Virus record (IMG/VR): IMGVR_UViG_3300010392_005355
Coordinates: 1-64,000 of that record
Length of the DNA: 64,000 nucleotides
Direction: 5' to 3' (one strand)
Origin: a virus
Shown here: positions 4,559 to 63,446 of the stretch, in pieces
Numbering within the stretch: the stretch's first letter is position 1
How the letters are laid out: the number at the start of each line of letters is the position of its first letter
Notes under the pieces: generated by a model
Databases searched by the model: none
What the model was told of the DNA's origin: nothing
The model's input: the letters and a program-made list of their open reading frames with translations, nothing else
Made by a program: the position numbers and the translations under genes

Positions 4559-5085
4559 CAGATTTCCCCCAATGCCAGCAGATACGTATCGAGCATCAGT
4601 TCCTGCTCTTCCCGGTCGGCCTTATCGATCTTCCGGAGGCGGATGACGGCGCGGAGGGCTTTTGTGTCGAATCCCAAGGCCTTGGCCTCTGCGTAGACTT
4701 CCTTGATCGCCTCAGCGACTTCCTTCTTCTCCTCTTCGAGGCGTTCGATCTTGGCGACGGTCTGGCGGAGCCTTTCGCGCCCGGGCTGTCCAAGTGCCCC
4801 AGCTAATTCAGGGGCACGGTCAGGCGCGTGGCTATTGTGCCCGGTGCCGGGGAGGGTGGGCTCATCACCATCCTCGCTCTGCTGCAGGACCTCGCGCTTT
4901 CCCGCGTGGTTCGGCGCCGATACGAGGCCGGACTTCTCCATCCGCTCGATAAGGTCGTAGGCCTTGTTGTAGCCAAGCGTCAGCTCACGCTGCAGGTAAC
5001 TGACGCTCGCGCGGCCGGATTTCAGGACGGTGGAGACGGCTCTCTCATAGAGAGCGTCCATGGTGGCTTGATCTGTGTCGGTCAT
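4558..5085 (-). CDS. FtsK gamma domain fused to GapR (DUF2312)
   Basis: A 175-aa protein of two recognisable domains. Residues about 8-68 match the FtsK/SpoIIIE gamma winged helix (ASVSYLQRELTLGYNKAYDL, IERMEKSGLVSAPNHAGKRE), which reads KOPS/SRS polarity sequences in cellular FtsK. Residues about 105-175 match GapR/DUF2312 (KIERLEEEKKEVAEAIKEVY, AEAKALGFDTKALRAVIRLR), the alphaproteobacterial nucleoid protein that clamps overtwisted DNA ahead of forks and RNA polymerase. The linker carries GTGHNSHA. There is no FtsK motor. It is inferred to be a phage chromatin or replication factor with sequence-directed targeting. Overlaps with both neighbours show coupling. Domain calls are strong; function is inference. 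Confidence 0.9.
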   Translation of the reverse strand: MTDTDQATMDALYERAVSTVLKSGRASVSYLQRELTLGYNKAYDLIERMEKSGLVSAPNHAGKREVLQQSEDGDEPTLPGTGHNSHAPDRAPELAGALGQPGRERLRQTVAKIERLEEEKKEVAEAIKEVYAEAKALGFDTKALRAVIRLRKIDKADREEQELMLDTYLLALGEI

Positions 5086-5465
5086 TCCGGCACCACCACG
5101 CCGATCACCGGCTTACCTGGGGCGATGCGCTGAAGGCTCTCCATTGGGCCTTCGGTGCGCTCCTGCTGGCCGCGTGGGAGACTGACGGTCTCGCCGTAGC
5201 GTTCGATCAGGGCGGCGCCAATGGCTTTCCAGTCAGGCTTTTCACCGTCCTCAAAGCGCCCCGGCATGTCCGGCAGGTGCGCGCGGATCGCCTCGGTCAT
5301 GCGATGCCACAGGGCCTTGTCCGCGAGTTCATGCGTCCAGACCGGGTGGCCCAGAACCCATTCCGCAACGGCTCCCATGTCACTGTAGGACATGCCTTGC
5401 TTCAAGCCTATTCCGCACGAGGCAGAGCCTACGATCAGTGTGTCGAATTCTTTCATGGTGGTCAT
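5082..5465 (-). CDS. Paralogue B of a duplicated phage gene
   Basis: A 127-aa protein (MTTMKEFDTLIVGSASCGIG). It has the same length as the gene at 4175-4558 and shares most residues, with differences concentrated in the first 75 residues. Its stop overlaps the fusion gene's ATG as ATGA, and its own start overlaps the upstream stop likewise. Retention of both copies in frame suggests each is used, or that the duplication is recent. Function unknown. Confidence 0.75.
   Translation of the reverse strand: MTTMKEFDTLIVGSASCGIGLKQGMSYSDMGAVAEWVLGHPVWTHELADKALWHRMTEAIRAHLPDMPGRFEDGEKPDWKAIGAALIERYGETVSLPRGQQERTEGPMESLQRIAPGKPVIGVVVPE
5140..5219. repeat. 80-bp direct repeat, right copy
   Basis: Perfect match to 4233-4312 in the same orientation, within the second paralogue. 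Its high identity compared with the rest of the gene suggests recent duplication or gene conversion. Confidence 0.95.
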
Positions 5466-5917
5466 GCTGCTTTCTTTCCTTCAAAAAATGCGCTCACGGC
5501 GTCGTCAAGTTCCTGGCTCTCGCAGCCGAGGACGAACCGCGCGCATATATCCACGGCCTTGTTGCAGAGCTGACTGAAGGCCGGTTCATCCAGCTTTCCG
5601 AACGAGATCGACTTCGGCACGTATTGCGTCACCCACTCGCCGGGCCGCTTTCCGGGAACGACAATCGTCGTGAAATGCCCGGTCTTTAGCTTGAGCATGT
5701 CGGAGACGGATTCCCGCGACGGGTAGTGCTCCGAGTTCTCGCTCACGACCTCGCACAGCTTCCACCACCATTTGAGCCGTTTGTAGTTGCGGGGAAGGCT
5801 GACAACCGCCTTGATCGCGCGGTTCAGTGGTAGCTCCCAGATGGCTTCCTGCGACTCCGCGTCGGCGGCGATCAGGCGTCCGTCCAATGTACGGGTGAGA
5901 TGGATTTCAGTGGCCAT
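5462..5917 (-). CDS. DUF1367-like protein
   Basis: A 151-aa protein. The segments LNRAIKAVVSLPRNYKRLKW and PKSISFGKLDEPAFSQLCNK have the spacing and sequence of DUF1367, a family of early genes in lambdoid phages with no known activity. It lies directly upstream of the SSB gene relative to the window (downstream in transcription), consistent with a role in recombination or replication. The short gap before SSB has no separate promoter that I can see. Confidence 0.7.
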   Translation of the reverse strand: MATEIHLTRTLDGRLIAADAESQEAIWELPLNRAIKAVVSLPRNYKRLKWWWKLCEVVSENSEHYPSRESVSDMLKLKTGHFTTIVVPGKRPGEWVTQYVPKSISFGKLDEPAFSQLCNKAVDICARFVLGCESQELDDAVSAFFEGKKAA

Positions 5918-28343: not shown

Positions 28344-28910
28344 ATGATCCATCCAGACGCCTTCATCCACCCGAAGGCCCATGTGGAAGGGGCAATGATT
28401 GGTGCGCGCTCGAAGGTCTGGCAGTTCGCCTCCGTCATTCGCGGCGCTGTGGTTGGGGAGGATTGCAACCTCGCCACTGGTGCGTGCCTGGATGGCTCGA
28501 CCATCGGTGACCGCACAATCATCTGCCACAATGTGGCCATGGGACCGGGGTTTCGGGTTGGCGATGACGTCTTCATCGGACCACAGGTGACGCTGTGTAA
28601 TGACCGCTGGCCAAGGGCTCACAAGACGGGATTTGACATAGACCGGTATCGCGGCGACGACATGGCGGTCATCATTGAGGATGGCGCCAGCATCGGGGCG
28701 GGCGCGGTCATCCTTCCCGGCGTTCATATCGGAGAGGGCGCCATGATCGGCGCGAATTCCGTGGTGACGGGAAATGTTCCGGCCCATCACGTCTGGATCG
28801 GAAACGGCCGCATCATCCCAATCAGAAACGAGGGCCGGGAACGCATTCGGTTCGCCCGGTCCGGACTTGATGACAGTCGCCAGTACATGGCAGAGCGTGG
28901 CTTTGGCTAG
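28344..28910 (+). CDS. Left-handed beta-helix acyltransferase (WbpD-like)
   Basis: A 188-aa protein built of hexapeptide repeats ([I/V]G-[A/D]-x-x-x), for example VVGEDCNLATGACLDGSTIG, and IIEDGASIGAGAVILPGVHI. It resembles N-acetyltransferases that act on UDP-amino sugars (WbpD/WlbB type). It may modify host surface polysaccharide during lysogeny or infection, or modify a virion glycan. The catalytic His is likely in ICHNVAMGP. Confidence 0.85.
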   Translation: MIHPDAFIHPKAHVEGAMIGARSKVWQFASVIRGAVVGEDCNLATGACLDGSTIGDRTIICHNVAMGPGFRVGDDVFIGPQVTLCNDRWPRAHKTGFDIDRYRGDDMAVIIEDGASIGAGAVILPGVHIGEGAMIGANSVVTGNVPAHHVWIGNGRIIPIRNEGRERIRFARSGLDDSRQYMAERGFG

Positions 28911-29520
28911 GCTGGCGGTCTGCACCCTTCTATGGGACAGCAACAAACACAGCCGCAGCTTCTCTCAGGCCTATAACGAAACATGGGTGGAGCGCCTCTA
29001 TCGCGGGTTTTCCAGAAACCTGACTGCCCCGTTTGATTTCATCTGCTTCACGGACAGGCTTCGGACATTCAGCGAGAGCATCAGCCAGCTGCGCCTGTCA
29101 TCCGACCAGCCTGACTATGGGCATTGTATCGAACCCTATACGCTGGGCCGCCCCATGATCCTGGTAGGCCTCGACACAATCGTCACGGGGAATGTCGACC
29201 ATCTGGCAAACTACTGCCTGAGCGCAGAGAAATTCGCCCTTCCGCTTGACCCATACAATCCATCGCAGTGCTGCAACGGTGTGGCGCTGGTGCCGGAGGG
29301 CCACGGACATATCGGCACAAACTGGCGTGGCCAGAATGACATGGTCTGGGTCCGGCGCTTTGACCATGCCGTGATTGACCAGCTCTTTCCGGGGCAGGTG
29401 GTCTCCTACAAGGGTCACGTAAAGCAAAACGGCCTGGGGGACGCGCGGGTGGTGTATTTTCACGGCGATTCCAAGCCGCACGAGCTCGACGAGCGCTGGA
29501 TCGACCAGCACTGGAGATGA
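28897..29520 (+). CDS. Glycosyltransferase-like protein
   Basis: About 207 aa from a GTG at 28897; the frame is open further upstream, but the acetyltransferase gene covers that part. Features such as AVCTLLWDSNKHSRSF, DFICFTDRL, MILVGLDTIVTGNVDHL and the C-terminal RVVYFHGDSKPHEL follow the plan of GT8-like or alpha-1,4-galactosyltransferase-like enzymes with a DxD-like segment replaced by LDT. Start and activity are uncertain. Confidence 0.72.
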   Translation: MALARLAVCTLLWDSNKHSRSFSQAYNETWVERLYRGFSRNLTAPFDFICFTDRLRTFSESISQLRLSSDQPDYGHCIEPYTLGRPMILVGLDTIVTGNVDHLANYCLSAEKFALPLDPYNPSQCCNGVALVPEGHGHIGTNWRGQNDMVWVRRFDHAVIDQLFPGQVVSYKGHVKQNGLGDARVVYFHGDSKPHELDERWIDQHWR

Positions 29521-48903: not shown

Positions 48904-48937
48904 CTCCCCCCTGGCCGTGTGGCTGGGGGGGAGTTTT
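48904..48937 (+). terminator. Plus-strand intrinsic terminator
   Basis: CTCCCCCCTGGCC-GTGT-GGCTGGGGGGGAG followed by five Ts. It closes the late plus-strand transcription unit. Confidence 0.9.
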
Positions 48938-48952
48938 TGCGTTTCTGAGCAC

Positions 48953-48986
48953 AAAAAAAGCCCCCGCGTCCGGAGACAACGGGGGC
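48953..48986 (-). terminator. Minus-strand intrinsic terminator
   Basis: On the minus strand GCCCCCG (48986-48980) pairs with CGGGGGC (48966-48960), followed by seven Ts. It ends the leftward unit that includes the 271-aa membrane protein. It forms a convergent terminator pair with the previous entry. Confidence 0.9.
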
Positions 48987-48990
48987 AAGT

Positions 48991-49806
48991 TTACGCCGCA
49001 GCGCGGCTATCCATCCACTTCACGAAGTCAAATACCTCGCTTTCGAACTCGTCCATGGTTTGCTCAAGCTGGTCGAGTTCTTCCTCGGCGCTCATCTTTT
49101 TGCCAACCATGAGCGGCAGTCCGATGGCCGAGGCGGCCATAGAGAGCGAAGAAAGCAGGAAGGCGATAAGCCATGCAAATCCTTCTGCGTGCTCTCCGGG
49201 GGCTTCAGGGCGGCCCTGTGAGGTGGTCTTTACTGCCTCGGACTCCTGATCTCCCAAATCCTTCAGTGTGGCGACAAGCGCCGCTCCAAAGTCATTCATG
49301 GCCTGTTCTGTTTTTCCGCCTGCTATCCCGTCCAGTTTGCCGAGATAGAGCCCTTTGCCCTTCAAGAGGCGCTGGGCCTTCAGGATATCATCGCCGGTGA
49401 CTATGGCGAGTTCTTCCTTGGCGGTTGCGATACGCTGCCGAATGACTGGCAGGGCATCGGTAGCAGAGTCGTACGCGGCCTGGCTCTCAATGGCGGCGTC
49501 CCGGTTCGCCTTGATCTCTCCGACCGTGGCGAGTGAGTTGCCGTAGACGTCGCCCGCGTAACAGACCACCGCCATGACGGCGGCAATGATCGCAACGTCT
49601 TTCATTCCGATCCTGCTGGCAACGCCGATAGCGCCTGCGCAGAGGAAGGCGAGACCGGCAATGCCGATCCCGATAAGTCCGGCCCCAGAGAGGCCGTCGA
49701 ACGCGCGTTCATATCCCTGATAGGACATGCTCGCTGAGTTCAGGAGCACGAGACAACCGCAAGCGGTGATCGCGGCTCCGATGATGATACGGATAAAGCC
49801 GTTCAT
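48991..49806 (-). CDS. Membrane protein with peptidoglycan-binding-like segment
   Basis: A 271-aa protein. Four membrane helices are predicted (about 5-25, 42-62, 70-86 and 209-230). Between the third and fourth is a helical region with LLKGKGLYLGKLDGIAGGKT, which resembles the PG_binding_1 repeat (G-Y-x-G-x-x-D-G-x-x-G-x-x-T). The C-terminus is acidic. It may alter the envelope of the lysogen. No family recognised. Confidence 0.75.
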   Translation of the reverse strand: MNGFIRIIIGAAITACGCLVLLNSASMSYQGYERAFDGLSGAGLIGIGIAGLAFLCAGAIGVASRIGMKDVAIIAAVMAVVCYAGDVYGNSLATVGEIKANRDAAIESQAAYDSATDALPVIRQRIATAKEELAIVTGDDILKAQRLLKGKGLYLGKLDGIAGGKTEQAMNDFGAALVATLKDLGDQESEAVKTTSQGRPEAPGEHAEGFAWLIAFLLSSLSMAASAIGLPLMVGKKMSAEEELDQLEQTMDEFESEVFDFVKWMDSRAAA

Positions 49807-49882: not shown

Positions 49883-50074
49883 CTAGTTTGCTGCATTTGC
49901 CGACTCTGGCTGCGTAGTGATCAGCGACAGGTCTTCATTGAAGGTCTCGATCTCTTCGGCGCGACGGTCGAAGTAATCGGCTGTCAGTTGATCCGTGACC
50001 TGGATCGCTGCCCGAATGCGGGCGAAGCGGGCTTTGAGGTCAGCAGCGCGTTGAGCCTTGTTTGCTTTAGCCAT
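49883..50074 (-). CDS. Small helical phage protein
   Basis: A 63-aa protein (MAKANKAQRAADLKARFARI) with an AGGAGA site 7 nt upstream of the ATG at 50074. Third gene of the leftward microprotein operon. Basic first half, acidic second half; no family recognised. Confidence 0.7.
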   Translation of the reverse strand: MAKANKAQRAADLKARFARIRAAIQVTDQLTADYFDRRAEEIETFNEDLSLITTQPESANAAN

Positions 50075-50114: not shown

Positions 50115-50150
50115 GGCACCCCAAAACCCGGCCTGATTTCTCAGGTCCGG
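50115..50150 (-). terminator. Minus-strand hairpin with conserved tail (copy 1)
   Basis: On the minus strand a CCCGG-A-CCTGA / TCAGG-CCGGG stem with a GAAA loop, then TTTTGGGGTGCC. The 15 bases GGCACCCCAAAACCC (50115-50129, plus-strand sense) recur exactly at 50287-50301. It lies between the 36-aa and 63-aa genes. Confidence 0.65.
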
Positions 50151-50159
50151 GCGGTTGGT

Positions 50160-50270
50160 CTATTTTCTGCGCTTCGTTCGCAGTTGTATTTCGTACATTA
50201 TTGAGCTGAAGATTGACCCAGCCACTGAGCCGATGATCAGCCCGCAAATCACGCCAAGTTCGTAGTCCAT
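50160..50270 (-). CDS. 36-aa single-pass membrane microprotein
   Basis: A 37-codon frame from ATG 50270 with an AAGGAGAAT site 6 nt upstream. It encodes MDYELGVICGLIIGSVAGSI followed by a short basic tail (RTKRRK). One membrane helix (about 5-24), positive end probably cytoplasmic. It is the second gene of the leftward microprotein operon. Support: ribosome-binding site, membrane topology and the repeated terminator module on each side. Confidence 0.65.
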   Translation of the reverse strand: MDYELGVICGLIIGSVAGSIFSSIMYEIQLRTKRRK

Positions 50271-50286: not shown

Positions 50287-50327
50287 GGCACCCCAAAACC
50301 CCACCGCCATGACGCGAAGTGGGGCTG
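50287..50327 (-). terminator. Minus-strand hairpin with conserved tail (copy 2)
   Basis: On the minus strand CCCCAC...GTGGGG then TTTTGGGGTGCC. It lies between the 28-aa and 36-aa genes and shares its 15-bp tail with the hairpin at 50115. Possibly a partial terminator that sets graded expression of the operon. Confidence 0.6.
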
Positions 50328-50349: not shown

Positions 50350-50436
50350 CTATTTCCCGGTTCTGAAGCACTTGCGGCCGAAGTATCTGGGCTTCTCTTC
50401 GGTGGGCTCTTGGGTCGGCGTTTGGTCTTCGTTCAT
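50350..50436 (-). CDS. 28-aa microprotein with YFGRK-x-FRTG tail
   Basis: ATG at 50436, with AAGGAGA 6-7 nt upstream, and only about 22 nt from the predicted transcription start. It encodes an acidic, Pro/Thr-rich N-terminus (MNEDQTPTQEPTEEK) and the C-terminus PRYFGRKCFRTGK. The last 11 residues match, with 9 identities in 10 over YFGRKxFRTG, the extreme C-terminus of the host ParA-partner protein at 59925-60410. First gene from a near-consensus promoter. Function unknown; mimicry of that tail is a hypothesis. Confidence 0.7.
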   Translation of the reverse strand: MNEDQTPTQEPTEEKPRYFGRKCFRTGK

Positions 50437-50458
50437 CGGGGTCTCCTTTGCTTCCGAT

Positions 50459-50511
50459 ACGTGTGATATACGTGTTACCTACGGCATTGTCAACGTGTTA
50501 TTTGCGTGTTA
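50459..50511 (-). promoter_or_regulatory. Near-consensus promoter overlapped by four phased repeats
   Basis: Minus strand TTGACA (50493-50488), 17-bp spacer, TATATC (50470-50465). Plus-sense repeats ACGTGT(TA) start at 50459, 50470 and 50493, with GCGTGTTA at 50504: two pairs, each spaced 11 bp, the pairs 34 bp apart. This helical phasing is typical of cooperative repressor sites, here covering the promoter of the microprotein operon and the 5' region of the divergent gene at 50540. Confidence 0.8.
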
Positions 50512-50539
50512 CCGAGAAAAAAGATGCAGAGGAGCCCGC

Positions 50540-50794
50540 ATGGCGAAGAAATCGCGATCACAGGTAACAGCTGAGTATGAGGCCAGGGTCTCAGAGAAGG
50601 GGGGCGGGCGCTTCCCGACTATGACCTTGCAGCCGGACGAAATGGCGGCGTGGGAACGCGCTATGGCGCAGGATACCGGGCCGGATCGTGGCAAGGCGAA
50701 GCGAACGTTGATGCGCGCATTGGCGGCGCTTGAGCAGCGCAATGAGCCATCGAACGCCGAAATCATCGAGATGTTGAAGGCGCGCCTGAAATGA
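50540..50794 (+). CDS. Small regulator candidate, divergent from the microprotein operon
   Basis: An 84-aa protein. A basic N-terminus (MAKKSRSQVTAEYEARVSEK) precedes a strand-helix-helix pattern (RFPTMTLQPDEMAAWERAMA, then KRTLMRALAALEQ) that could be a ribbon-helix-helix fold. It faces the phased repeats, so autoregulation is likely. The assignment is by pattern. The ATG at 50540 has an AGAGGAG site. Confidence 0.72.
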   Translation: MAKKSRSQVTAEYEARVSEKGGGRFPTMTLQPDEMAAWERAMAQDTGPDRGKAKRTLMRALAALEQRNEPSNAEIIEMLKARLK

Positions 50795-50830: not shown

Positions 50831-51130
50831 ATGAAAGAGTCGTCAAAATGTCTCCACATGGCAGTCCTGACTTCGCCAGAGACGGCTGCGCGAATGGCCG
50901 AAGCCGAGCGAATCAATAGGTATATGGCCACCGACGATTTCAGCGATGAGGAGGTGGCACGAGTCGATGATCTCGCTCTAACAACGCGCTTGAGCCGCCT
51001 TGAGGCGTACTATCGTGTGCGGGCGGAGCGCCACATGACGCCTGCGCAAGTTCAGGCTTTCGATGAGTTGACCCGGAAGACGGGGATGAGGCTTGACGAT
51101 TTTCTAGAGGTTACGGGCGGCAAACTGTAA
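50831..51130 (+). CDS. Hypothetical protein at the prophage right end
   Basis: A 99-aa helical acidic protein (MAEAERINRYMATDDFSDEE). An AAGGAG site lies 8 nt before the ATG at 50831. It follows the putative regulator by 36 bp and may be its partner. It is the last phage-like gene before the tRNA. No family recognised. Confidence 0.68.
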   Translation: MKESSKCLHMAVLTSPETAARMAEAERINRYMATDDFSDEEVARVDDLALTTRLSRLEAYYRVRAERHMTPAQVQAFDELTRKTGMRLDDFLEVTGGKL

Positions 51131-51205
51131 TCAGGGCGAGCGATCCGTCCCCGCGAGTGAGGATGTGATCACGTATGGCGCGGGGGAGAACGTCCCGGCA
51201 ACGTC

Positions 51206-51229
51206 TTGGAAAAACAGTTGGAAAAACAG
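51206..51229. repeat. Perfect 12-bp tandem repeat near the tRNA
   Basis: TTGGAAAAACAG occurs twice in direct tandem. It lies 57 bp before the tRNA-Gly gene in the 156-bp gap after the last phage-like gene. Such short tandem copies beside a tRNA could be integrase arm sites, though no integrase is in the window to compare. Confidence 0.7.
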
Positions 51230-51286
51230 CACCGCAAAAACGGGGTTGCGATTGGGGCGGATCACCAGTAGTTACTGCACTTCGGC

Positions 51287-51360
51287 GCGGGTATAGCACA
51301 ATGGTAGTGCAGCAGCCTTCCAAGCTGAGTATGTCGGTTCGATTCCGTCTACCCGCTCCA
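51287..51360 (+). tRNA. tRNA-Gly (anticodon TCC)
   Basis: A 74-base cloverleaf with acceptor GCGGGTA/TACCCGC, D-stem GCAC/GTGC, anticodon loop CTTCCAA (TCC), T-loop TTCGATT and encoded CCA. The T-stem (GTCGG/CCGTC) has one T-T mismatch. It reads GGA and, by wobble, other glycine codons. As a tRNA at a prophage edge it is a candidate attachment site, but a second copy of its end is not in the window. Confidence 0.95.
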
Positions 51361-57679: not shown

Positions 57680-58498
57680 ATGTCACATCATCCGAAGAGG
57701 GAACGTTTGAAGCGCCAGATCCGGCTCTGCTGGCTGCTCGGCTGGAGCGTTACGCGCATTGCGGCGCAGGTGGGGCTGCACCGCACAAGCGTCTACCGCC
57801 TGATGCGCGAACATGAGCTGAACGAGCCGGAAAAGCCGCTGGAGCGCCTGCAGCTGGCCATGGATGAAGCGCAGGACCAGGCGACGGAACAGATGCTGGC
57901 CGCCGCCGCGGCGGGCGAGGACATCGCGCCGAGAGTGACGCAGCTGGTGCGGGTCAGCACGGAAGTGCGCCAGCTGGAAATGGCAGGAATCAAGGTCGGG
58001 GGGATCGCCCATGAACGGGAGGCCGCAAATCAAGCCGCAGACGAGGAAGAGGACATCTATGCCTTCCTCTCCGATGAAGGGGCCCAGACGGGCGGCCATG
58101 AGAGGAAAGGGCGACCAGCTGATGGATCCGGACTTCCGCCGAAAGGTGCGCCGGGCCTGCGAGACGGGGGACTGGAGCGACCTGCCGCCGAAGACGGGCG
58201 AACTGGTGGCGGAGAATCCGTGGTTGCGCCTGGCCCGCGATACACAGGTTCCACCGCGGGCGGGCTGGCGGACATGTCTGTTCATGGGCGGACGCGGCGC
58301 TGGCAAGACACGGGCCGGGGCGGAATGGCTGCGCTGGAGCCTGCTGCACGGCGGGCGGAGGCGTGCGGCGCTGGTGGGCCCGGCCCTGCACGATGTGCGC
58401 GAAGTGATGATCGACGGACCGAGCGGCCTGAAATGGATCGAGCCCAGGCAGGATCTTCGCCCGGTCTATCATGCGAGCCGGCGTATCCTGCGCTTTGA
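57680..58498 (+). CDS. GTA TerS-like protein (gp1)
   Basis: Starts at ATG 57680 after a strong GGAGG site. Residues 1-140 are gene-like: an HTH (LCWLLGWSVTRIAAQVGLHR, TSVYRLMREHELNEPE), then a helical oligomerisation region. This fits the small terminase/gp1 of GTA clusters. After about residue 140 the frame runs on without a stop, over 488 bp of the large-subunit gene, giving a Gly/Arg/Pro-rich tail. Relatives end near 58,090, so the tail is probably an artefact of a lost stop or a true extension. Confidence 0.72.
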   Translation: MSHHPKRERLKRQIRLCWLLGWSVTRIAAQVGLHRTSVYRLMREHELNEPEKPLERLQLAMDEAQDQATEQMLAAAAAGEDIAPRVTQLVRVSTEVRQLEMAGIKVGGIAHEREAANQAADEEEDIYAFLSDEGAQTGGHERKGRPADGSGLPPKGAPGLRDGGLERPAAEDGRTGGGESVVAPGPRYTGSTAGGLADMSVHGRTRRWQDTGRGGMAALEPAARRAEACGAGGPGPARCARSDDRRTERPEMDRAQAGSSPGLSCEPAYPAL

Positions 58499-59420
58499 CA
58501 ATGGCGCAGAGGCGCATGTCTTCTCCGCCGAAGACCCGGACAGTCTGCGCGGCCCGCAATTCGATGTCGCCTGGTGTGACGAGATTGCCGCCTGGGCGAA
58601 GGGAGAGGCAGTGTGGGACACGCTGCAGATGGGTCTGCGCCTGGGGGCGGCTCCGCGCTGCTTTGCGTCCACGACGCCGCGGGCGGTGGGCCTGATGCGC
58701 CGCCTGCTGTCTGCGGGAGAGGATGAGGCCGTGCATGTGCTGCGCGCCGGGACGCAGGAGAATGCCGGCAATCTGTCACCGGATTTCCTGCGCGCCATGA
58801 AGGCCGCCTATGGCGATAGCCAGCTGGCTCGGCAGGAGCTGAACGGCGAATTCATGGAAGACCCCGAAGGCGCCTTGTTCCGTAGGGGGATGATTGACGG
58901 CGCCCGTGTCGATGCCCCGCCCATGATGGAGGATGTGATCGTCGCGGTCGACCCGCCGGCGACCAGCGGTCCGGCGGCGGATGCGTGCGGCATCATCGCG
59001 GCGGGCGTGCGCAGCGGCCATGCCTATGTGCTGGCGGATGCGTCTGCGCCGGGGCTGAAGCCGCTGGACTGGGCCCGGCGCGCGGTGGCGGTTTGCCGCG
59101 AGACCGGCGCGCGGGAGATTATCGCGGAGGCCAATCAGGGCGGCGAAATGGTGCGGCAGATTTTGGAGAGCGCCGGGGCGGGCGTGCCGGTGCGGCTGGT
59201 GCATGCGCGGCTGGGCAAGCGGGCGCGGGCGGCCCCGGTGGCAACATTGTACGCACAGGGACGGGTCAGCCATGTCGGCCTGCTGCCCACGCTGGAAGAC
59301 CAGATGTGCCGGTTTGGCGCGGAAGGGTTCCGCGGCTCACCGGACCGCGTGGACGCGCTGGTCTGGGCGGTGTGGGCGTTGGTGCTGGAAGGTGCCGGGC
59401 CATGGGTGCGGGTGTTGTGA
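58011..59420 (+). CDS. GTA terminase large subunit (gp2)
   Basis: Up to 469 aa. Walker A GGRGAGKT, Walker B FDVAWCDEIAAW, and nuclease-site Asp residues at VAVDPPATSG and RVDALVWAVWAL. It is similar to gp2 of RcGTA-type clusters. The ATG at 58011 has a GGGGGGA site, but starts at 58074, 58098 or 58122 are also possible since conservation begins near MDPDF. It packages random host DNA if the GTA is functional. Confidence 0.93.
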   Translation: MNGRPQIKPQTRKRTSMPSSPMKGPRRAAMRGKGDQLMDPDFRRKVRRACETGDWSDLPPKTGELVAENPWLRLARDTQVPPRAGWRTCLFMGGRGAGKTRAGAEWLRWSLLHGGRRRAALVGPALHDVREVMIDGPSGLKWIEPRQDLRPVYHASRRILRFDNGAEAHVFSAEDPDSLRGPQFDVAWCDEIAAWAKGEAVWDTLQMGLRLGAAPRCFASTTPRAVGLMRRLLSAGEDEAVHVLRAGTQENAGNLSPDFLRAMKAAYGDSQLARQELNGEFMEDPEGALFRRGMIDGARVDAPPMMEDVIVAVDPPATSGPAADACGIIAAGVRSGHAYVLADASAPGLKPLDWARRAVAVCRETGAREIIAEANQGGEMVRQILESAGAGVPVRLVHARLGKRARAAPVATLYAQGRVSHVGLLPTLEDQMCRFGAEGFRGSPDRVDALVWAVWALVLEGAGPWVRVL

Positions 59421-59924: not shown

Positions 59925-60410
59925 TCAGCCCCCCGTGCGGAAGGCTTTGCGGCCGAAATAGGCGTTTTTGGGGGGCGTGGGTTTGTCGTCGTCGGAGGCC
60001 GTTTCCTCCGTGGACGTTTCTTCTGCTGCGGTTTCCGCCTCTGCCGGTTTGGCTTCCGCTGCGGATTCTAGCGGGGCGGGCATGTTGCCGGTCATCAGGC
60101 CGCGAATCCAGGCGCAGGCGGCGCCGGCGGTGGAGACTTCGATGTCCGGGACGGTCTTGTCCATGCGGCGGGCGAGCTGGCGCGCCTGGTGGGCGGTCAG
60201 GGATTTCAGCACCTTGTCGAAGATCTCCGGCCCGACTGTTTCGCGGAGGGCCTTCATGTCTTCCGTGGTCTGACCCGCGGAGACCATCAGTCTCTTGACG
60301 AGAATTTCTGTGGCGGCGGAGAAGTCTTTCTCCCCCAGCTTGCCGAAGCGGTCTTTCTGGCCGAGCAGGGCGCCGAGGGCGTTGGCGCTGTCCTTGGGGG
60401 CGTCGGTCAT
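59925..60410 (-). CDS. ParA-partner protein with disordered tail ending YFGRKAFRTGG
   Basis: A 161-aa protein. Residues about 1-105 are helical (KDFSAATEILVKRLMVSAGQ, LTAHQARQLARRMDKTVPDI). Residues about 110-145 are an acidic Ala/Glu/Thr linker. The final 11 residues, YFGRKAFRTGG, form a distinct basic-aromatic tail. The ATG overlaps the ParA stop (ATGA), the usual arrangement of a ParA-type ATPase with its adaptor. No ParB family similarity seen. The tail is nearly shared with a 28-aa prophage protein at 50350-50436. Confidence 0.8.
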   Translation of the reverse strand: MTDAPKDSANALGALLGQKDRFGKLGEKDFSAATEILVKRLMVSAGQTTEDMKALRETVGPEIFDKVLKSLTAHQARQLARRMDKTVPDIEVSTAGAACAWIRGLMTGNMPAPLESAAEAKPAEAETAAEETSTEETASDDDKPTPPKNAYFGRKAFRTGG

Positions 60411-61508: not shown

Positions 61509-62675
61509 ATGAAACCCATCTGGCCTTTCCGATTGCCCCAGCGCGAGGCGAAAGCGGCGGTGCCTCTGGTCGCGCTATCAGAAATCGGGACGGCCAGATG
61601 GGGCGCCCGCGATGGCGCGGCGTTGACGCGGGACGGGTATCTGCAGAATGCCGTGGCCTATCGCGCGGTGCGCATGGTGGCCGAGGCGGCGGCGTCCGTT
61701 CCGCTGGTGACGGCGCACGATGGCGCGGCGCGGCTGATCCGCAGGCCGCAGCCGGACGGCGTGGCGGCGGAACTGTTCGAGGCGGTCTATTCCCAGCTTC
61801 AGCTGACCGGCAATGCCTTTCTGGAAGGCGTCTGCCTGGAGGCTGTGGGGGCGGCGGCCAGTGGGGCGGCCAGTGGGGCGGATGGGGCGGGGGTGTCTGC
61901 GCTGTATGCGCTGGCCCCGTCCGCCATGCGGCCGCTGAAGGATGCGCGCGGCTGGGTGGAGGCCTGGGCCGTGAAGGAACGCCATGGCGAGCGGGTGATC
62001 CGCCGCGATGCAGAGACGGGCTGGAGCCCGGTGCTGCACCTGAAACTGTTCAACCCGGTGAATGACACGTTGGGCCTGGCCCCGCTGGGCGCGGCGCGGC
62101 GGGCGCTGGACCTGCACAATGCGAGCGCGGACTGGGCGAAGGCGCTGATCGATAATTCGGCCAAGCCCTCCGGCGCGCTGGTCTATGGCGGGCATGGGCG
62201 GATGCCGCCGGACCAGTTCGAGGCGCTGAAGACGGAGCTGGAGAGCATGTATTCCGGCGCCAGCAATGCGGGGCGGCCCCTGCTGCTGGAGGGCGGGTTG
62301 GAGTGGCGGCCGATGTCTCTGTCGCCAGCGGAGATGGATTTTCTGGAGGCGCGGCATGGCGCGGCGCGGGAGATTGCGCTGGCGCTGGGCGTGCCGCCCA
62401 TGCTGTTGGGGATTCCGGGGGATAATACGTATTCGAACTATAAGGAGGCGAACCTCGCCTTCTGGCGGATGACGATTTTGCCGCTGGTGCAGAAATTCGC
62501 GGGCGCGCTGTCGGCCTGGCTGGATGTGCCATTCGGGCAGGATGTGGAGATCCGCGCAGACATTGACCGCGTGCCGGCCCTGTCGGCCGAGAGGGATGCG
62601 CTGTGGGCGCGGCTGGAAGGCGCGAGCTTTGCGACCGCAGAGGAGAAGCGACGTCTGGCGGGGCTGCAATCATGA
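61509..62675 (+). CDS. GTA portal protein (gp3)
   Basis: A 388-aa HK97-type portal. LTRDGYLQNAVAYRAVRMVA, LQLTGNAFLEG, LGLAPLGAARRALDLHNASA and LGIPGDNTYSNYKEANLAFW are characteristic. A short GAASGAASGADGAG low-complexity insert (about 116-130) is unusual. It is similar to gp3 of RcGTA-type clusters and distinct from the DUF1073 portal of the prophage. Confidence 0.95.
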   Translation: MKPIWPFRLPQREAKAAVPLVALSEIGTARWGARDGAALTRDGYLQNAVAYRAVRMVAEAAASVPLVTAHDGAARLIRRPQPDGVAAELFEAVYSQLQLTGNAFLEGVCLEAVGAAASGAASGADGAGVSALYALAPSAMRPLKDARGWVEAWAVKERHGERVIRRDAETGWSPVLHLKLFNPVNDTLGLAPLGAARRALDLHNASADWAKALIDNSAKPSGALVYGGHGRMPPDQFEALKTELESMYSGASNAGRPLLLEGGLEWRPMSLSPAEMDFLEARHGAAREIALALGVPPMLLGIPGDNTYSNYKEANLAFWRMTILPLVQKFAGALSAWLDVPFGQDVEIRADIDRVPALSAERDALWARLEGASFATAEEKRRLAGLQS

Positions 62676-62902
62676 AGATGGAGCAGAAAGTGACGGCAGG
62701 CTTTGTGCTGGCCGTGATGGTGCAGACCGGCGGCGCGCTGGTCTGGGCCGGGGCAGCGGCGGAGCGGATTTCGCACCTGGAGCAAACCGTCCGGGAACGG
62801 CGCACAATGGTGGAACGGCTGGCGCGCCTGGAAGAGGGCGTCGACCGGATGGAAAGCCAGCTGGACCGGATAGAGCGGAAGATGGAGGCGGGGGATGAGT
62901 AG
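62672..62902 (+). CDS. GTA small membrane/coiled-coil protein (gp3.5-like)
   Basis: A 76-aa protein from MKMEQKVTAGFVLAVMVQTG: one N-terminal membrane helix (about 8-26), then a coiled coil (LARLEEGVDRMESQLDRIER). It has the size and place of gp3.5 in GTA clusters. The start overlaps the portal stop as ATGA. Confidence 0.82.
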   Translation: MKMEQKVTAGFVLAVMVQTGGALVWAGAAAERISHLEQTVRERRTMVERLARLEEGVDRMESQLDRIERKMEAGDE

Positions 62903-63446
62903 GCGTTTTTGCGAAGATGCGCGTGCGCATTACCCCCCTCTACCTCCCCCCTTTCAGGGGGGAGAATGGCCCTCAAGCAAGGCGGCTGCTGTTCGGGTTC
63001 CTCCCCCTGCAAGGGAGAGGACAGGTGGGGGTCATGATACGAGACGCGACCTCCTCATCGAAGGCTATGCCTCTCTCTTCGGGGTACCGGATGCGAGCGG
63101 GGATGTGGTGCGGGCCGGAGCGTTTACGCGGAGCCTGCAGCGGGCGGCGCGTGTGCCGATGCTGTTGCAGCACAGGCCGGGCGCGATTGCCGGGCGCTGG
63201 GTGCGCATGGTGGAGGATGGACGCGGGCTGTACGTGCGTGGGCTGATCGAAAGCGAGGCGGCGCGCAGCATGGCGAAGAGCGGCCTGAGCGGCCTGTCCA
63301 TCGGCTTTCGCCCGCGTATCTGGAACCGTTTGAGGGCGGACGGGCGGGAACTGATCGAGGTGGATCTGGTGGAAGTGTCCCTGGTGGGCAGCCCGATGCA
63401 GGCCCGTGCCCGGTTTGCCCTGATGGGCGCGGCGGTGGCGGCGTGA
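62895..63446 (+). CDS. GTA prohead protease (gp4) with repeat-derived N-terminus
   Basis: A 183-aa HK97-family prohead protease. The conserved part begins near residue 53 (LLIEGYASLFGVPDASGDVV) and continues with the catalytic region LLQHRPGAIAGRW, LSGLSIGFRPR and a DLVEVSLVGSPMQ end. Residues about 13-46 are encoded by the palindromic repeat at 62931-63032, whose translation is Pro/Gly/Arg-rich and not typical of the family. It is removed or tolerated only if the protein folds from residue 50 on. Confidence 0.88.
   Translation: MSRRFCEDARAHYPPLPPPFQGGEWPSSKAAAVRVPPPARERTGGGHDTRRDLLIEGYASLFGVPDASGDVVRAGAFTRSLQRAARVPMLLQHRPGAIAGRWVRMVEDGRGLYVRGLIESEAARSMAKSGLSGLSIGFRPRIWNRLRADGRELIEVDLVEVSLVGSPMQARARFALMGAAVAA
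62931..63032. repeat. ~100-bp palindromic repeat element, in-gene copy
   Basis: Aligns over its full length with the reverse complement of 59437-59536, including CTCCCCCCTT-CAGGGGGGAG, the core CAAGCAAGGCG-CTGCT and the second CTCCCCCT hairpin. It lies inside the 5' part of the prohead protease frame and keeps it open. It resembles palindromic elements that spread into coding regions, such as those of Rickettsia. Confidence 0.85.

Follow-up and report, generated by a model that had tools for sequence, protein, structure and literature searches.

In this study, we describe a predicted 28-residue phage product that ends in nearly the same peptide as a small host protein encoded beside a ParA-type ATPase. 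The two open reading frames lie in one window (the whole stretch of DNA analyzed, 64,000 nucleotides), where both tails, first noticed in an initial annotation of this DNA, were recovered at the same positions, on the minus strand (Table 1). Over YFGRKxFRTG, the phage microprotein and the ParA-partner are identical at 9 of 10 residues. The phage tail is encoded by TAC TTC GGC CGC AAG TGC TTC AGA ACC GGG and the host tail by TAT TTC GGC CGC AAA GCC TTC CGC ACG GGG; these 30-base stretches are unlike at several synonymous positions, and therefore recent DNA copying does not explain the likeness, as that annotation had argued. Its view that the resemblance exceeds chance was also borne out: in the 73.6-kb record, a degenerate form of the pattern with up to two mismatches matched at these two sites and nowhere else.

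Table 1. Features of the microprotein region and the ParA locus in the window, and microproteins of the other phages
Feature	Position	Strand	Details
Membrane protein, 271 aa, last gene of the leftward operon	48991..49806	-	Weak peptidoglycan-binding match
ORF, 62 aa, leftward operon	49883..50071	-	No family match
ORF, 36 aa, downstream of the microprotein	50160..50270	-	No family match
Phage microprotein, 28 aa	50350..50436	-	Acidic/polar N-terminal half and C-terminal YFGRKCFRTGK; translation MNEDQTPTQEPTEEKPRYFGRKCFRTGK
Control region, divergent, between microprotein and regulator	50437..50539	.	Direct repeats and promoter-like pair
Divergent protein, 84 aa, putative small DNA-binding regulator	50540..50794	+	No family match
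GTA large terminase, flanks the ParA pair	58011..59420	+	
Host ParA-partner, 161 aa	59925..60410	-	Helical core, acidic/Pro linker, tail YFGRKAFRTGG; C-terminal end, in two excerpts, DDDKPTPPKNAYFGRKAFRTGG and KPTPPKNAYFGRKAFRTGG
Shared tail motif in the partner	59928..59960	-	YFGRKAFRTGG
ParA-type ATPase, 294 aa	60407..61291	-	AAA_31, E 1.6e-33
GTA portal protein, flanks the ParA pair	61509..62675	+	
Protease, after the GTA portal	62895-63446		
G1 microprotein			IMG/VR 2788500472_000002; MKEDQTPTETEEKPTNPYFGRKCFRTGK
G4 microprotein			Hyphomonas MAG; MMTDQKETEQQEPEQQTNPYFGRKCFRTS
G107 microprotein			IMG/VR 3300021417_000001; MTDSKTAEHQPDHEHEKEAPKYFGRKCFRTS

Distribution and conservation of the tail

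When approximately 85,000 species genomes were scanned for exact YFGRKxFRTG, 25 stretches matched. All but one (24 of 25) were the extreme C-terminus of a ParA-partner family from Hyphomonas and its close relatives, some of the bins being otherwise named; the other (L019), from an unrelated metagenome bin, was internal. From how degenerate the pattern is, we estimate that the 257-Gb collection should contain one or two matches to the exact pattern by chance.

Within Hyphomonas, the partner was detected by protein search in 41 of 42 genomes, and the tail pattern, at two or fewer mismatches, in 37 of 42. Four genomes had a partner and no match to the pattern: three of these have a variant tail, YFGRRSFRT, and the fourth (L117) has its tail out of frame with the core, an apparent frameshift. 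In this last genome (L117, G031; positions 4749-5636), the partner core and the tail YFGRRSFRT occupy separate reading frames of a gene that is otherwise conserved. Sister genera of the family (12 genomes) have YLGRK[AS]FRTGR or YIGRKAFRTGR at the same C-terminal end. Outside Hyphomonas and these sister genera, a single weak match was obtained among 398 genomes of the order, and no relative of the partner was found in the plasmid records searched.

The host consensus, Y[FLI]GR[KR][AS]FRT, closes nearly all Hyphomonas ParA-partners as well as those of the 12 sister-genus genomes. At the DNA level the host tail occurs in 45 distinct versions, which yield ten peptides, and Y, G, R, F, and R are invariant at positions 1, 3, 4, 7, and 8 in all 45; position 5 is occupied by K or R, position 6 by A or S, and position 9 by T or A. 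The variable position is always Cys in the phages and Ala or Ser in the hosts, and every intact copy of the tail stands at the extreme C-terminus. On the evidence of these sequences, the host tail is under strong protein-level constraint.

The initial annotation had allowed that such a tail might occur in many unrelated proteins by composition; the genome scans did not find this, and genus and family searches returned the tail solely in the partner and the phage peptide. The tail is essentially exclusive to these two kinds of protein. The same searches bear on a further explanation, namely, that the tail is a cellular handling signal (a degradation, processing, or modification site or similar) that lies outside the ParA circuit and is carried by proteins otherwise unrelated in function. 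C-terminal motifs frequently have such roles, and the use of Cys in phages versus Ala or Ser in hosts suggests that the constraint is not fully identical on the two sides; however, a general signal should recur in other host proteins, and we therefore regard this explanation as quite unlikely.

The phage microprotein and its surroundings

An AAGGAG ribosome-binding site lies upstream of the microprotein in the window. Three further phage contigs encode a microprotein ending YFGRKCFRT (Table 1), which brings the total to four phages, and in each of the four an AGGAG-type ribosome-binding site is located a few bases 5' of the ATG. The products are 28 to 31 residues long, with low-complexity N-terminal halves that can barely be aligned between phages. 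The first nine codons of the window tail, in contrast, differ from those of the other phage copies solely at synonymous positions; because this nine-codon core has accumulated several synonymous changes and no nonsynonymous changes, the phage tails appear to be selected as protein. Together, the ribosome-binding sites and the synonymous-only tail changes in four phages provide indirect support for translation of the 28-codon frame, and, judged by sequence, the gene is genuine. It is true that an open reading frame of just 28 codons could be fortuitous, but given these features in four phages, and given that the sole unrelated match in a collection expected to hold one or two chance matches was internal, it is very improbable that the shared tail is a coincidence or that the frame is unexpressed.

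The four phages represent at least two types. The window phage and G107 have a terminase in common (79 percent identity), and structural genes are common to G1 and G4; the likeness between the window phage and G1 lies chiefly in the lysis-side genes and the microprotein. The hosts of the window, G1, and G4 phages are close Hyphomonas relatives. The window and G1 prophages differ from each other but occupy one site, and their hosts are near-identical, with a shared flank that matches at 99.9 percent over 12.9 kb and includes the gene transfer agent (GTA) genes and the ParA pair. Both prophages end at the same place (51125-51360), approximately 160 bp before a tRNA-Gly gene, and the G4 prophage likewise ends near a similar tRNA gene. 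The four microproteins may have a common origin by transfer. The microprotein is missing from two related prophages that share the lysis-side genes, and it is thus an accessory gene.

Relatives of the prophage lysis region in viral contigs were matched by using an alignment of three homologues as the query; single lysis-region proteins used as queries against the viral contigs gave no matches. Two C-terminal patterns used to look for additional microproteins returned only the known ones and chance frames. Among the candidates, the 14-residue frame VNYLGRKNFRTGIR (L121) was set aside as chance, and YLGRKCFRKSN (G010) and YFGRKIFSP (G106) were rejected since both lie inside other frames. A search of GenBank phage records for relatives of the G107 microprotein was negative.

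In all four phages, the microprotein is the first open reading frame of a leftward cluster whose final gene encodes a membrane protein; the position of the 271-residue protein of the window is occupied by a membrane-protein gene in the other phages. Beside the microprotein, a small gene resembling a regulator is divergently oriented, and the leftward cluster faces two convergent membrane-protein genes that run rightward. In the window, the 36-residue open reading frame is a possible second gene of the leftward operon. Within the control region, two 21-nucleotide direct repeats (50459-50479 and 50493-50513) overlap a promoter-like pair on the minus strand, TTGACA-17-TATATC. We infer that this pair is a promoter, although a consensus scanner gave no promoter there, and the repeats (50459-50513) are likely to be an operator for the divergent small regulator. 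The 84-residue divergent protein is probably that small DNA-binding regulator of the microprotein operon; at the same place, G1 and G4 have different ribbon-helix-helix-like genes and G107 has a gene that is helix-turn-helix-like by eye.

Several other elements were observed in the phage DNA. An identical 15-nucleotide element, GGCACCCCAAAACCC, occurs at 50115-50129 and 50287-50301, between the small leftward genes, and stable hairpins are predicted in the stretch 3' of the microprotein. A 90-bp double hairpin between convergent genes (48907-48996), likely a two-way terminator, recurs at 97 percent identity in a Hyphomonas prophage that is otherwise different (L046, 7401-7489). A glycosyltransferase-like moron gene (28774-29520) is flanked by the phage portal and head protease genes.

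The place of the microprotein at the head of a conserved leftward cluster that includes membrane proteins might suggest that it is a recruiter or localization tag, which takes a phage product to the receptor of the tail, for instance through its acidic N-terminal half or as a subunit alongside other proteins of the operon. That N-terminal half is not conserved between the phages, however, and there is scant space for another binding surface in 28 residues; such a role is unlikely.

The host ParA pair and its gene transfer agent setting

The deviant Walker A motif of the host ATPase, NSKGGVGKTTT, which contains the signature lysine (KGGVGKT), was invariant in 18 sequences, and the top matches in a fold search were Soj/ParA structures. 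The stop codon of the ParA gene overlaps the start codon of the partner gene (ATGA), and the two genes are adjacent in essentially every locus with enough flanking sequence. An AlphaFold2 model of the partner has a confident helical core, with helices between residues 5 and 107, and low confidence in the linker and tail. The linker is rich in Asp, Glu, Pro, and Thr, cannot be aligned between clades, and is highly variable in length. The partner had no match in Pfam, NCBIfam, PADLOC, or the PDB, by sequence or by fold, and neither Pfam nor NCBIfam detected a ParB N-terminal (Srx) domain in it. The earlier suggestion that these genes constitute an undescribed positioning system fits the absence of the partner from these four resources; the positioning part of the suggestion follows from the ParA-type ATPase only. 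A reading as a defense system was discarded, as PADLOC gave just weak generic ATPase matches for ParA.

The ParA pair lies antisense between the large terminase (TerL) and the portal of an RcGTA-type GTA. After the portal and protease come the capsid, tail tube, DUF2460, and megatron genes, those from the capsid to the megatron being at or beyond the end of the window (L189). The RcGTA-type identity is supported by a GTA_megatron score of 1301 bits against a cut-off of 800 and by DUF2460, capsid, and other matches, with the genes in order. Like other clusters of this type, the locus comprises a terminase, portal, protease, capsid, DUF2460, and GTA TIM-barrel megatron; unlike them, it has an antisense ParA gene and partner inserted between the terminase and portal. 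The same arrangement is found in the sister genera, whereas many genomes of the family have the GTA portal and no partner.

Conversely, at least 17 Hyphomonas genomes, some of them incomplete assemblies, have the partner and no GTA portal match at an E value of 1e-20, and several partner loci have long flanks without a portal or with portal fragments only. Dependence on the GTA was accordingly rejected as the sole role of the ParA pair: its retention in these genomes, without a recognizable GTA portal, indicates a host function that resides in the GTA cluster and often outlives it. The neighbors of the ParA pair include GTA genes, phytase, GGDEF, and a 908-residue open reading frame without a Pfam match.

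A proposed docking tail and a possible decoy

In ParA-type systems, the partner has one segment for ParA and another for cargo. ParB contacts ParA through a short, disordered N-terminal motif that is hydrophobic and basic, and the free peptide stimulates ParA (PMC12462528); similarly, it is the N-terminus of McdB that serves McdA (PMC12204374). The McdB C-terminal motif contains an invariant tryptophan, R(V/I)WPD in alpha-McdB, and the last 10 residues of alpha-McdB from one species suffice to bind carboxysome cargo (PMC11321042).

The Hyphomonas pair is reminiscent of McdAB in that a ParA-type ATPase gene stands beside that of a small, partly disordered partner with a short, conserved, aromatic extreme C-terminus. 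Unlike McdB, however, the Hyphomonas partner has a folded core domain, and its tails (YFGRKxFRTG or variants) lack Trp and are therefore not an McdB motif; moreover, the pair is located in a GTA cluster, no carboxysome genes were seen among the neighboring genes listed above, and a phage copy of the tail exists. ParABS systems likewise use a short motif at a disordered terminus, with hydrophobic and basic residues, and the free ParB peptide alone is active on ParA (PMC12462528), but here the motif is C-terminal, no ParB domain was detected in the partner, and the host ParB has a separate canonical LGRGLSALIGE (ParA-binding motif of the host's own ParB, KPSRLGRGLSALIGE).

Based on its constraint, its recurrence in phages, and its near exclusivity to two kinds of protein, a shared binding partner for the two tails, as envisaged in the initial annotation, is a natural inference, and the phage peptide probably uses the same docking site as the host partner; the additional step to competition or recruitment outruns the data. 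We propose that the tail is a docking motif and that the phage peptide is a free copy of it, which would act as a competitive decoy and uncouple the host adaptor; we consider this proposal to have a little less than an even chance of being correct. Conservation of the tail next to a linker that cannot be aligned was counted in favor of a docking motif, as were the contrast in the AlphaFold2 model between the confident core and the low-confidence linker and tail, the extreme C-terminal position, the near exclusivity of the tail, the existence of four phage microproteins with a conserved operon position and regulatory layout and a tail core selected as protein, and the sufficiency of free peptides for contacts of this kind in McdB and ParB (PMC11321042, PMC12462528).

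It can be envisioned that the host tail closes a small adaptor-like protein, paired through gene overlap with the ParA-type ATPase, in which a disordered linker, variable in length, joins the folded helical core to the tail. If McdB and ParB are a guide, this partner would touch nucleoid-bound ParA with one segment and hold cargo with another. The phage product, in effect a piece of linker plus the tail, could occupy the receptor of the tail and yet could not bridge; a competitive decoy would therefore be its simplest function. Such a scheme supposes a protein receptor for the tail, the same receptor for both tails, and uncoupling as the result. We have a small preference for cargo or another non-ParA host factor as the receptor, with ParA being the main alternative. 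In favor of cargo, the tail resembles that of McdB in being C-terminal and aromatic, and the N-terminal helix of the partner may serve as its contact with ParA.

If ParA were the receptor, the tail would itself be the ParA contact, located C-terminally where such contacts are normally N-terminal, and the phage peptide, in the manner of the isolated ParB peptide, would bind the ParA dimer everywhere, either stimulating its ATPase or blocking the partner, so that the ParA gradient collapses. Contacts with ParA are made by short, disordered terminal stretches, hydrophobic and basic in character, that are active as free peptides (PMC12462528, PMC12204374), and the composition of the tail (Y; F, L, or I; F; two invariant R residues; and one K or R) would suit such a contact. 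Furthermore, the first 17 residues of several Hyphomonas partners contain no basic residue, which means that the canonical basic N-terminal contact is absent there and that its conserved basic residue is not maintained across Hyphomonas partners; the N-termini of sister-genus partners mostly have GR or GK. The known ParA contacts are N-terminal, however, and the extreme C-terminus of McdB binds cargo (PMC11321042). In addition, the sister-genus N-terminus GRxALSAIL is loosely like the GRGLSALI of ParB, which would leave the tail for another role, although that match is not significant. When the ends of the partners were compared with the host ParB motif in a shuffle test, P values were 0.01 to 0.76 for the N-termini and 0.18 to 0.42 for the host tails; because this resemblance is unconvincing against shuffles, no receptor was assigned on the strength of it. 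On balance, a direct ParA contact is possible but doubtful.

The proposed docking decoy may also be compared with DicB, another tiny prophage protein directed at a host system of spatial organization. To our knowledge, DicB does not imitate a host partner's tail, whereas the Hyphomonas phage peptide reproduces a host C-terminal motif almost exactly. DicB, from the Qin prophage, acts through MinC (PMC4967827).

In conclusion, we tentatively suggest that Hyphomonas and its relatives have a ParA-type positioning system, hitherto undescribed, in which the adaptor docks by its nearly invariant C-terminal tail, and that a free tail copy of 28 to 31 residues, encoded by temperate phages, disconnects this adaptor. 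If this is correct, a phage would target a bacterial positioning system by means of a copied docking tail alone, and the 28-residue peptide would be a bait for the cargo of an uncharacterized ParA system. The motif is short, exact, and common to host and virus, which makes the idea directly testable. The ParA pair itself represents a host function, housed within GTA clusters and often outliving them.
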